A stretch of 11,547 bases of DNA, from positions 1 through 11,547 of the forward strand of contig JAHJCU010000014.1 in NCBI GenBank assembly GCA_018812925.1, in the 5' to 3' direction. The stretch's first letter is position 1, and each line of letters opens with the position of its first letter. The stretch comes from Candidatus Omnitrophota bacterium. GTDB taxonomy: Bacteria > CAIJMQ01. Positions 7,780 to 11,298 of this stretch are shown piece after piece. A model generated the notes under the pieces. The model saw nothing but the letters and a program-made list of their open reading frames with translations. It was not told the origin of the DNA and did no database searches. Both the position numbers and the translations under genes were made by a program.

Positions 7780-8724
7780 TTAGTAGCCACCAAATCCAAC
7801 CTCGGGCATGTACTGAGGCATTAAGTGTACCTTCTTTGGGCAACTTTTGGTATATGGGCAAATTGCTATCAAACAGCCCGATAGGCTAGAAGGAATAAGT
7901 ATCACATGCCCATCAAGCATTCCTGCAGTAGAATCATTAAGATGGCGCGGCTCGACCAAATCGCAGGAACAGTTCCTGGGGTCATTCATCGCATAGGGAC
8001 AGCCGCCGGGCCATGGGCAGCCGGGTGTGCAGCCGCACGTGGTGCCTGTTATCATTCCAGTGTGTTCTTCAGCATAGACCACTGTTTGGCTCGGTCCCGG
8101 AAATGATGTAATTTTCCTGTGTCCACCTGGGCAAGCCTCGGCTGAACTTATTCCTCCTCCCTCAAATACAGTACGATACATACCATTAGCATCCAAAACA
8201 GCAGTAGAGGGTATGACCCATGTGCGTTCGGAAATCGCATAGTCGTACTGGCGCCTCGGCCTCGTAGGAGAAGTTCCTGGAATCAATGGGTTTCGAGCCT
8301 GCGCACTTGGGCATTTAAAGAATTCAGGATTAGTTAGATAACCACCGCTGAAAAGAAGACCTCCTTTTGCCCTTCCCTGTCCAGTTCCAGAAAACGCAGT
8401 GCTGACAGGTGAGATTTGAGCACAACCCTCGCACCAGCCATATGTAGGATACGTCATTAATCCCGTTACAACACCTTGGTATCCTGGCAGGTAATTGTCC
8501 CAATCGTTCGCATATAATATGTTCGCAAGCATCAGTTGGTGCAGATTGTTCATACATCTTGCCCTTATTGCGAGGTCTCTTGCCCTGTTCAATGCAGGAA
8601 GTAGCACTGCAGCCAAAATTCCAATAATAGCTATTACTACAAGAAGCTCTATTAGCGTGAAACCACTATCTACCCGCCTCTTCGGGAAATCTTGTCCGAG
8701 GAGAATCTTAACTCTACTTATCAT
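7780..8724 (-). CDS. Prepilin-type, H-X9-DG family surface/secretion protein, cysteine-rich
   Basis: This is a 314-aa pseudopilin-like protein exported through a type II secretion or type IV pilus type system. The prepilin peptidase site is G21-F22 in [19 protein letters not shown], with the conserved glutamate at mature position 5, followed by the hydrophobic helix to about residue 44 and [25 protein letters not shown] at 71-81 and FFKCPSAQ at 135-142 are family landmarks. H261 followed after nine residues by D271-G272 is the H-X9-DG motif. The product has 14 cysteines, six of them at 230-254 in a CGC...C...C...CSC cluster, which is unusual. The ATG at 8724 has AGGAGGG 9 bases upstream and lies 3 bases after the anti-sigma stop. 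It also has its own consensus promoter. The role is unproven. Confidence 0.9.
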
Positions 8725-8743
8725 ATCTCATCCCTCCTTTTTT
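8722..8743. repeat. 22-bp leader shared with the pseudogene locus, copy 1
   Basis: These 22 bases are identical to 11277-11298 and contain the ribosome binding site AGGAGGG, the overlapping ATGA and the start codon of the prepilin gene. Identity stops exactly at both ends, as expected for the leader of a duplicated gene. Confidence 0.9.
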
Positions 8744-9450
8744 GCATTCTTTACCCCGTTTTTAAATTCCTCTGATGCCACGTCAGAACTGATTTCTGAC
8801 CAGAATTTACTGTGATAATTATAGGTAAGCATATCATATTTGTCAAGGAACTGCGCCCCGTGAAATCCATGGATTTCCGTCCCCGTGGAATTTCTCTCAG
8901 AGAAATTCCCGGGATTTAGTCCTTGGGATTGCTTTGCAATTCCTAGGGAGACTAAAGTCCTTGAGATTGCCTTGCAATCTCTAAGGGCATTTGTTTTTAC
9001 ATTTGTGGTTGCTCGTGTTGCCGGGTAGAGCAAATATGTAGATATTTGCTCTATCGTTTTCTCGTGAACATATTGGAGCCACTCCATCTGTTGGGTGCGT
9101 ATATGCAGGAGCCCACTTAAGAAAATTAGCAGAGCTATTAGAATCCCGTTCAAAGCGAATGCAAATTTAGAGATAAAGCGATTGAACGAACTCTGAACTC
9201 CAGATAGTCGCAGAGTTGCAGTTCTATCTAATCTACTCTCTAATTTTTGCCAATAGTTTTCCCAGTATTCCTTAGAAGGTTTTTCTCTAACCTTGAGTTT
9301 GAGCAGGTTATCAATCTTGGTCATAGTGTTAAGCTCATCCATACACTTGTGACATTTAGCAAGGTGTTCTTTAATTGCGTTTCTATAAGTAACCTTTAAC
9401 GAATTGTCCAAGTAACCCGATAAGAACCTGTTTACTTTCTCACACTCCAT
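8728..9450 (-). CDS. Membrane-bound zinc-finger anti-sigma factor (zf-HC2/ZAS type)
   Basis: This 240-aa protein is expected to hold the adjacent ECF sigma factor inactive until a signal arrives. The N-terminal zinc anti-sigma motif has C3, H29, C33 and C36 (EHLAKCHKC), the classic HxxxCxxC pattern. One membrane helix (FALNGILIALLIFLSGLL, about 97-114) separates a cytoplasmic head from an outer part. The ribosome binding site is excellent (AGGAGGTGA) and the ATG is 22 bases after the sigma stop. Residues about 153-200 are the in-frame translation of palindromic modules (8853-8994), and residues after about 200 overlap the promoter of the next gene. The C-terminal third is therefore probably recent, non-conserved sequence and the ancestral protein probably ended earlier. 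Confidence 0.85.
   Translation of the reverse strand: MECEKVNRFLSGYLDNSLKVTYRNAIKEHLAKCHKCMDELNTMTKIDNLLKLKVREKPSKEYWENYWQKLESRLDRTATLRLSGVQSSFNRFISKFAFALNGILIALLIFLSGLLHIRTQQMEWLQYVHEKTIEQISTYLLYPATRATTNVKTNALRDCKAISRTLVSLGIAKQSQGLNPGNFSERNSTGTEIHGFHGAQFLDKYDMLTYNYHSKFWSEISSDVASEEFKNGVKNAKKEG
8782..8800 (-). promoter_or_regulatory. 5'-UTR hairpin of the prepilin transcript
   Basis: GTCAGAA and TTCTGAC form a perfect 7-bp stem with a 5-base loop, 10-30 bases downstream of the expected start site of the 8818-8846 promoter. It could be an operator or an mRNA-stabilising structure. Confidence 0.45.
8818..8846 (-). promoter_or_regulatory. Consensus sigma-70 promoter for the prepilin gene
   Basis: On the minus strand TTGACA (8841-8846), a 17-bp spacer and TATAAT (8818-8823) match the consensus at all 12 positions. 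It lies inside the 3' end of the anti-sigma ORF, about 95 bases upstream of the prepilin start, so that gene can be expressed independently of the sigma operon. The -35 region (TTGACAAATA) is also present upstream of the pseudogene copy at 11352-11357. Confidence 0.8.
8856..8981. repeat. Cluster of palindromic modules inside the anti-sigma gene
   Basis: Four palindromes are packed in 126 bases. A perfect 16-bp palindrome GAAATCCATGGATTTC is at 8862-8877. An 11-bp-arm palindrome (GGAATTTCTCT with AGAGAAATTCC) is at 8887-8909. GGGATTGC/GCAATTCC at 8925-8943 is nested in TTTAGTC/GACTAAA arms (8915-8956). GAGATTGC/GCAATCTC is at 8963-8981. CCCCGT precedes each of the first two. The modules GAAATCC, ATTGC and GACTAAAGTCC recur at 10147-10205. 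Confidence 0.85.
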
Positions 9451-9472: not shown

Positions 9473-10015
9473 TTAGACAACAAACCTTAATTTTTCTTTG
9501 AGTTTATTTCTCGCTTGAAATAAACGCCAAGATACGGTCTTTTCCCGACAACCTAAAATTTGCGCTATTTCTCTATGAGGTAAGCCTTCAAGAAGCGCCA
9601 ATTCTACTACTGCCTTTTGCTTCAGCGGTAAAGAATTTATGGCCTTTGTTATTTCTTCGTTTAACTGGCGGCTTTCTGCAATTTTCTCAGGGTTAGAGAT
9701 ATCTTCAATCGAAATATTTTCATCTAATGTAAATATTTGCCTTCTCCCCATTTTCTTTAGGTGATTGATCGTTATATTCATAATTATTCTATATAACCAT
9801 GTGAAAAAAGAGGATTTCTCTTGGAAGTTACAGATTGATTCATACGCTTTAATAAAAGCTTCTTGAGAAAGGTCATCTGCGTCAGTATGGTTATTAGTCA
9901 TCCGATAAGCTACAAAATAAATTTGCTGCTTATATTTTTGCACCAACTCGCCAAACGCATCTCTATCACCCATCTTAACTCTCCTAACCAACGCCATGTC
10001 TTGTTCTGTTTTCAT
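9473..10015 (-). CDS. ECF-type RNA polymerase sigma factor (RpoE-like)
   Basis: This 180-aa sigma-70-family factor would redirect RNA polymerase to its own promoters on a signal relayed by the anti-sigma encoded 22 bases downstream. Region 2 covers about residues 18-88, with the core-binding and -10 segment HTDADDLSQEAFIKAY (43-58) and FFTWLYRIIMN (70-80). The short linker contains ENISIEDISNPE. Region 4 is at about 125-175, with the -35 helix-turn-helix LLEGLPHREIAQILGCREKT. Region 3 is absent, as in ECF factors. The ATG at 10015 has no clear ribosome binding site, and an in-frame stop lies just upstream, so the start is 10015 or the Met at codon 7. Target promoters cannot be read from this window. 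Confidence 0.94.
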   Translation of the reverse strand: MKTEQDMALVRRVKMGDRDAFGELVQKYKQQIYFVAYRMTNNHTDADDLSQEAFIKAYESICNFQEKSSFFTWLYRIIMNITINHLKKMGRRQIFTLDENISIEDISNPEKIAESRQLNEEITKAINSLPLKQKAVVELALLEGLPHREIAQILGCREKTVSWRLFQARNKLKEKLRFVV

Positions 10016-10039
10016 AAGGATATCTGATTACAGAAAAAT

Positions 10040-10113
10040 GTCATTGTGAGCCGAAGGCAAAGCAATTACACGGAGATTGCTTCGGCTGTGCCTCGCAACG
10101 ACCTTTTAGGTCG
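10040..10113. repeat. TGTCATTG-type interspersed inverted-repeat element
   Basis: Outer arms GTCATTGTGAG (10040-10050) and CTCGCAACGAC (10092-10102) match at 9 of 11 positions, with inner arms CCGAAG...AAGCAAT and ATTGCTTCGG. A second perfect stem, CGACCT/AGGTCG with a TTT loop, follows at 10099-10113. This resembles the non-coding 'TGTCATTGCGAG' repeats seen in many environmental bacterial genomes. It lies just upstream of the sigma gene. Confidence 0.65.
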
Positions 10114-10146
10114 GATTGCCACGCTTCTTTCAGTCGCTCGCCCCTA

Positions 10147-10222
10147 GAAATTGCGAAGCAATTTCAGGGACTTTAGTCCCGGAAATCCTTTGGATTTCAC
10201 GGGGCAATGACAACAGCGCTGT
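10147..10222. repeat. Palindromic module cluster upstream of the sigma gene
   Basis: In order: GAAATTGC/GCAATTTC with a GAA loop (10147-10165), GGGACT/AGTCCC with a TT loop (10167-10180), GAAATCC/GGATTTC with a TTT loop (10182-10198) ending in ACGGGGC, and the 10-bp palindrome ACAGCGCTGT (10213-10222). Read on the other strand, the first three are the same modules, in related order, as those inside the anti-sigma gene. Confidence 0.85.
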
Positions 10223-10550: not shown

Positions 10551-11286
10551 TTAAACATGACCGTCAATTTTGAGTACGTTGACACCACTCCTTCCGTGGT
10601 TTTTGTTCCCGGTGCCAGATAAGAAATAGCGAAAGTTAAATTGAGTGATAGGAGGACAATTACCAGTATCGTATTCCCCGTTCATATCAGCTGCCAAAGC
10701 GTGCGTATTCTCTTTACAGTTCACAGGCATGTTCCGAACCGTCGTTGATAAGAGCCTTACTGTTGCGGGGGAGAATGGAGACATAGAATTTAAGCCAAAT
10801 GCATACGTATACGAACATTCAGGTTTATTTGTTCCCAGAGAAGCTGTACCATAGGGGTTACCAATAAGGTAGCACGTTGAGAGAATTATCCTCATCCTTG
10901 ATTCCCCTCGTGTTGCTTGGGCAAAAGAGTATAGCACCTGTTCCATATTTTCCAGCATTTATCAAAATGTTGAAATCCCGTACGGTATTAGCGTCATTAG
11001 TATTAATGCTGCTAACAAAAGAATACCACCGCACGGAAACATCTGACCCCCCAGTTGTTTGCGTACATCATCAAGCCCATTACCTATCTCTTTGAGGTTA
11101 CTTTTGCAAACAGCACGTCTTGCAGCTTCCCTTGCTCTCTGGAGTGCTGGCAAGAACATAGCAGATAAAATCCCAATTATAGTTATTACAACAAGAAGCT
11201 CTATTAGAGTAAAGCCATTGCGGATTGAAGATTTTGAATCTTGCCTGCCCCTTCAAGGAGTCTTGAATCTCCTTAACATATCTCAT
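10551..11286 (-). pseudogene. Frameshifted prepilin-type, H-X9-DG family gene
   Basis: This is a decayed paralogue of the gene at 7780-8724. Its leader is identical over 22 bases. From the equivalent ATG (11279) an in-frame TGA occurs at codon 9 (11253-11255). The same frame then gives [19 protein letters not shown] and [19 protein letters not shown]. After one base is dropped near 11073 it reads [10 protein letters not shown]. After one G is dropped from the run at 11047-11052 it reads [12 protein letters not shown], then [11 protein letters not shown], then GAILFCPSN. A third shift near 10860-10900 returns to the first frame, giving SYTYAFGLNSMS and finally NHGRSGVNVLKIDGHV with its stop. 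Each shift removes one extra base. Using the ATG at 11286 plus one lost A avoids the TGA. Real decay or sequencing insertions could both explain the lesions. Confidence 0.85.
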
Positions 11287-11298
11287 CCCTCCTTTTTT
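11277..11298. repeat. 22-bp leader shared with the intact prepilin gene, copy 2
   Basis: Identical to 8722-8743, including the ribosome binding site and start codon. In copy 1 part of it is the end of the anti-sigma gene; here that gene is absent. Confidence 0.9.

Follow-up and report, generated by a model that had tools for sequence, protein, structure and literature searches.

A palindromic block within an anti-sigma factor gene of a Candidatus Omnitrophota bacterium consists of two nested copies of a dispersed double-hairpin element

The window, i.e., the whole stretch of 11,547 nucleotides analysed here, is one of the 14 contigs of an assembly (G000) that totals 1.47 Mb. On its reverse strand, an ECF sigma factor gene (9473–10015, 180 aa, with Sigma70_r2 and Sigma70_r4_2 domains) is followed by an ORF of 240 aa (8728–9450) and by a prepilin-like gene (7780–8724, with N_methyl and DUF1559/SBP_bac_10 matches). 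The 240-aa ORF encodes a zinc finger at residues 3–36, matching PF13490 (zf-HC2) exactly at the cut-off score; with this N-terminal domain and an ECF sigma gene immediately upstream, its product can reasonably be called an anti-sigma factor. A hydrophobic helix can be read at approximately residues 97–118. The AlphaFold model of the protein, based on four sequences, has a mean pLDDT of 42.9 and is uninformative; no relative was found in a scan of named genomes.

Other features of the contig were recorded as well. Just 5′ of the sigma gene lies a palindrome with 32-nt arms (10035–10107, GTCATTGTGAGCC...), and motifs like its GTCATTGCGAG recur in the sample of a sister genome. A second prepilin-like gene (10551–11290, reverse strand) is seemingly broken: its ATG follows the leader GGGATGAGATATG, as in the intact prepilin gene, but a 10-residue stretch is out of frame with this ATG. 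Both contig ends (1–557 and 11365–11547) fall within a sugar ABC transporter ATPase gene whose N-terminal half is absent; the end of the contig (GLMGAGRT) and its start (RILIAGEEVQ) would almost join, apart from a short gap. The contig may be near-circular or rearranged.

The original prediction was that four tightly packed palindromes encode residues 153–200, approximately, of the anti-sigma factor. Four hairpins are indeed present on the reverse strand (8959–8986, 8921–8948, 8881–8913, and about 8856–8879), within a block of 132 nt (8857–8988, reverse strand) that corresponds to 44 codons, residues 156–199, and whose ends are uncertain by 2 nt (GC repeat). The predicted fold of this block as RNA has −58.9 kcal/mol, compared to an average of −38.0 for shuffled sequences (z-score −5.67), and none of 200 shuffles is as low. 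However, the hairpins are not four independent modules, since their profile positions reveal two nested two-hairpin units. The inner unit is complete (8881–8948, reverse strand; profile positions 1–63, E = 7.9e-12) and interrupts an outer unit, whose first half spans 8949–8988 (profile positions 1–37 at 8950–8986) and whose second half (hairpin B), assigned by eye, spans 8857–8880, both on the reverse strand. The block is thus composed of two copies of a 62–63-nt double-hairpin element, one inserted in the central linker of the other. A similar non-coding module, also predicted, does exist and is slightly larger than the 10147–10198 first proposed: a full-length intergenic copy of the unit is located 5′ of the sigma gene on the forward strand (10142–10204; profile search, E = 4.4e-19), and inverted repeats of 51, 39, and 15 nt link it to the block.

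The profile built from the copies describes a unit consisting of hairpin A (CCCTAGAAATTGC-nnn-GCAATTTCAGGG), a linker (ACTTTAGT), and hairpin B (CCCGGAAATCC-nnn-GGATTTCACGGG). Aligned units start with CCYTAG and end with GGGG, while the outer ends pair over only about 4 nt. We located 58 distinct unit places in a sample of 1.36 Mb, namely 35 in 0.81 Mb of G000 and 23 in 0.55 Mb of a sister species of the same genus (G001). Pattern matching over whole genomes, in which symmetric units may count on both strands, yields 37 matches in G000, 29 in G001, 23 and 6 in the more distant outgroups G002 and G003, respectively, and none in G004–G006; a reversed control pattern gives zero matches. The hairpin-A pattern also matches named species genomes labelled Ratteibacteria, Omnitrophota, Desantisbacteria, Auribacterota, Nitrospirota, Spirochaetes, and others, and many of the assemblies with this pattern have full-length units according to the profile. 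A survey for the modules within other ORFs had been suggested, and 12 of the 58 places lie in ORFs of at least 100 aa. The unit is mainly intergenic, likely in part because, of the three reading frames per strand, most copies have just one or two open. Other places seem to be self-nested too, for instance C11:571479–571603 in G000. Elsewhere in the same genome (G000:C14), two identical copies at 115602–115663 and 115758–115819, 156 nt apart, share one ORF of 310 aa. The only Rfam 15 match, TeloSII_ncR33, reaches 19.7 bits, the gathering score being 105, so that no family is matched at gathering score. Among the papers listed by searches of an open-licence library, none describes the double-hairpin element or reports coding palindromes for these phyla.

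The arms of the unit covary. Over 22 copies, 97.4% of the cells are paired and 56 double changes are counted, compared to 18.0 ± 3.4 in shuffles, and the covariation is lost when the partner is slid. The palindrome, accordingly, is either maintained or regenerated; selection on structure and hairpin-templated repair are not told apart by covariation alone.

In G001, which like G000 is a multi-contig assembly probably derived from a metagenome, the orthologous sigma, anti-sigma, and prepilin genes occur in the same order. The site of the block is empty in this species: aligned with the window it reads GTAAAAACAAAT/GCGCAGTTCCTTGACA, with one frame on both sides, which bears out the expectation that the insert keeps the frame. 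The anti-sigma gene of G001 carries a different palindromic insert of its own, 72 nt long (CCCCGTTTAGAGATA...TATCTCTAACGGGG, with TTTGC on both sides), in frame and just before the hydrophobic helix; the matching site of the window (9161–9166, reverse strand) is empty. Minus their inserts, the two sister proteins measure 196 and 195 residues. Since neither the 132-nt block nor the 72-nt insert is present in G002 and G003, each most plausibly represents an independent insertion. G001 also has an insert of 135 nt, with a direct repeat of 9 nt, in the region separating its sigma and anti-sigma genes (G001:C14; L072, insert start 6061); this insert is absent in the window.

The insert had been thought to add a tail after the membrane helix, with relatives ending near residue 150. 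Instead, the block is internal: residues 200–240 pre-exist and are common to G001 (tblastn, 86% identity), and the C-terminal ends are found at residue 162 in G003, 178 in G002, and 219 in G001, the last including its own 24-residue insert. Residues 200–240 overlap two signals of the prepilin gene downstream, its promoter and its ribosome-binding site. Indeed, a sigma-70 promoter, TTGACA-17-TATAAT, with 12 of 12 consensus bases, lies within the anti-sigma ORF (8818–8846, reverse strand), where it presumably serves the prepilin gene, and the insert ends 10 bp upstream of its −35 box. By eye, comparable hexamers are found at the same place in G001 (TTGACA-17-TGTAAT), G002 (TTGACA-16-TATAAT), and G003 (TTGATA-17-TATAAT). 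The only two invariant residues in the tail part of the protein alignment, Asp-Lys, are encoded by the −35 region; considering the similar hexamers of the three relatives, the −35 box seems to dictate this conserved pair near the C-terminus. Between the sisters, the gene body shows pS of 0.286 and pN of 0.073; in the tail, all 6 differences are nonsynonymous and none is synonymous (Fisher p = 0.028 vs. the body). On these small counts, it is the DNA rather than the peptide that seems to be constrained in the tail. As the tail evolves unlike a protein, the extent of the ORF that is functionally read is uncertain. Finally, in G003 the anti-sigma gene has its stop within the promoter spacer; G000 and G001 may have lost a stop of this kind, which would account for their long ORF.

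The anti-sigma gene is one of many with such inserts. Approximately 194 kb could be aligned between the G000 and G001 samples, from which we took insertions that measure 24 nt or more and whose 40-nt flanks are well conserved. With a fold of −0.27 kcal/mol per nt or lower, 24 insertions fall in ORFs and 22 of them are multiples of three; a limit of −0.25 combined with a shuffle z-score gives 20 out of 23, and a strict perfect-arm criterion 11 out of 12 (p = 4.7e-5). The last criterion is too strict for imperfect hairpins; the results are presented for all three definitions. Given that the clean-flank filter favours coding sequence, that the ORFs were defined mechanically, and that the criteria were fixed after the data had been viewed, robustness can be granted to the share of in-frame insertions rather than to the ratio of coding to intergenic ones. 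The hosts are conserved housekeeping genes; proteins scoring above the NCBIfam cut-offs are UvrA, ValS, MurE, PdxA, NadC, PanC, and ribosomal protein S1. Other palindrome families (e.g., CCTGCCCGCC..GGCGGGCAG and CCCCGTTAGAAAT..ATTTCTAACGGGG) account for most of the ORF inserts. Within one gene, G000 and G001 carry different inserts in the cases of the anti-sigma factor, PdxA, and a UvrD-type helicase; in pdxA, the two different palindromic inserts, one per sister, are both in frame (L056:5769–6896 and L066:10747–11760).

Residues 156–199 are very probably the product of an in-frame insertion of dispersed repeat DNA, made of two nested units, and one of many such events. A double-hairpin unit would have entered the C-terminal segment of the anti-sigma factor, probably extracytoplasmic judging from the topology predicted for the protein, and a second copy would then have inserted into the central linker of the first. 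The persistence of the insert would be due to a length, 132 nt, divisible by three, a frame that stays open, and a presumably tolerant place, away from both the zinc finger and the membrane helix. Most likely, the 44 residues are a passive, tolerated spacer, which would be translated and would leave signalling unaffected. On a wider scale, palindromes of several families would enter genes throughout the lineage, and selection would purge the frame-breaking and stop-bearing insertions from genes, so that mostly in-frame, stop-free ones survive.

Other explanations have to be weighed against this one. A presence/absence difference alone gives no polarity, and the block could in principle be ancestral and have been lost from G001 by deletion. 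We reject this lineage-specific deletion as barely credible, for G002 and G003 also lack the block, which moreover is made of dispersed repeats. A recruitment of the insert, by which the anti-sigma factor would have gained a functional extension on its sensor side, is likewise very improbable. The location of the insert after the membrane helix and the fact that this gene took two different inserts in two species would agree with such a role, but the block occurs in one species only, the G001 insert sits before the helix, and similar inserts are found in unrelated enzymes.

The insert could also act as DNA or RNA, and not as peptide, by altering the expression of the prepilin gene or of the sigma operon, either because the prepilin promoter was parted from its former upstream sequence or because the hairpins change the mRNA. 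The perfect promoter 10 bp away, with similar hexamers in the relatives, the seeming constraint on the tail as DNA, and the covarying hairpin arms would fit this scenario; it is nevertheless decidedly unlikely, considering that the unit is found at many unrelated places and that other inserts are located deep inside genes, where no promoter is near. Alternatively, the ORF past about residue 155 could be without protein function, the palindromes lying in what is effectively a read-through extension of a gene whose ancestral end was near the promoter. The G003 protein, which stops at residue 162 inside the promoter spacer, and the absence of synonymous differences next to six nonsynonymous ones in the tail point in this direction. 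On the other hand, both sisters hold the frame open through their inserts and a 3-nt indel, and in-frame inserts are common in unquestionable genes, so that we regard this possibility as unlikely. It is not fully exclusive of the in-frame insertion of repeat DNA, with which it is partly compatible.

As to how the inserted elements spread, a transposase acting in trans or hairpin-templated copying during repair or replication may be responsible. No Y1_Tnp was found in G000. Y1-type transposase matches were found in G001 (L120, L121, L123, L124) and G002 (L119, L122), and these loci have no significant match to the double-hairpin unit; a link to a RAYT is thus not supported. There is no uniform target-site duplication, the flanking direct repeats measuring mostly 0–3 nt, with single cases of 5 and 9.

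Among known systems, the double-hairpin elements of fungal mitochondrial genomes likewise have two hairpins per element, but they are not bacterial. The resemblance to the Rickettsia palindromic elements (RPE) suggested at the outset holds in that the anti-sigma gene received a repeated palindromic element without a change of frame and the site is empty in G001. RPE are short palindromic repeats of several families, found both in intergenic regions and in frame in unrelated conserved protein genes (PMC2229807; PMC10969869). Common to both is the in-frame entry into protein genes that lack the insert in relatives, as in the 20 of 23 ORF insertions that are multiples of three. RPE, however, measure 105–146 bp with terminal inverted repeats of about 12 bp (Ogata et al., 2000, 2002, as quoted in PMC2229807 and PMC10969869), while the present unit measures 62–63 nt, with ends pairing over about 4 nt, has two separate hairpins, is self-nesting, and comes from uncultivated candidate phyla. 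By description, then, the element appears to behave like an RPE, which is not a claim of membership. For the guanylate kinase of Rickettsia, the kinetics of the enzyme with and without its insert have reportedly been compared. The GTAG- and CGTC-tagged REPs and the REPINs are often paired short palindromes with compensating stem changes between subfamilies, some of them in genes (PMC3733652); our units are similar in all these respects, but their ends carry no GTAG or CGTC tag and no link to a RAYT gene was found. Bacterial MITEs such as RUP, ERIC, and Correia are small, non-autonomous, dispersed stem-loop repeats, sometimes fused with ORFs (PMC2229807; PMC10969869). The unit shares the small size, the dispersal, the stem-loops, and the occasional presence in ORFs, yet it lacks long terminal inverted repeats and a uniform target-site duplication.

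Until now, protein-coding palindromes were a curiosity described mainly from Rickettsia, with few other cases. It is possible, and we advance it tentatively, that several unrelated palindrome families, including a self-nesting double-hairpin element common to several candidate phyla, are still spreading in intergenic DNA and housekeeping genes of this lineage, with no known transposase tied to them, and that in-frame palindrome insertion is a major source of change in protein length here. The sister pair, with its many filled and empty sites, differing inserts per gene, and nested copies, makes the rate of insertion, the choice of target, the frame bias, and the fate of the inserts directly measurable. 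The finding also calls for caution in annotation, as insert-derived peptides lie inside conserved proteins of such genomes.
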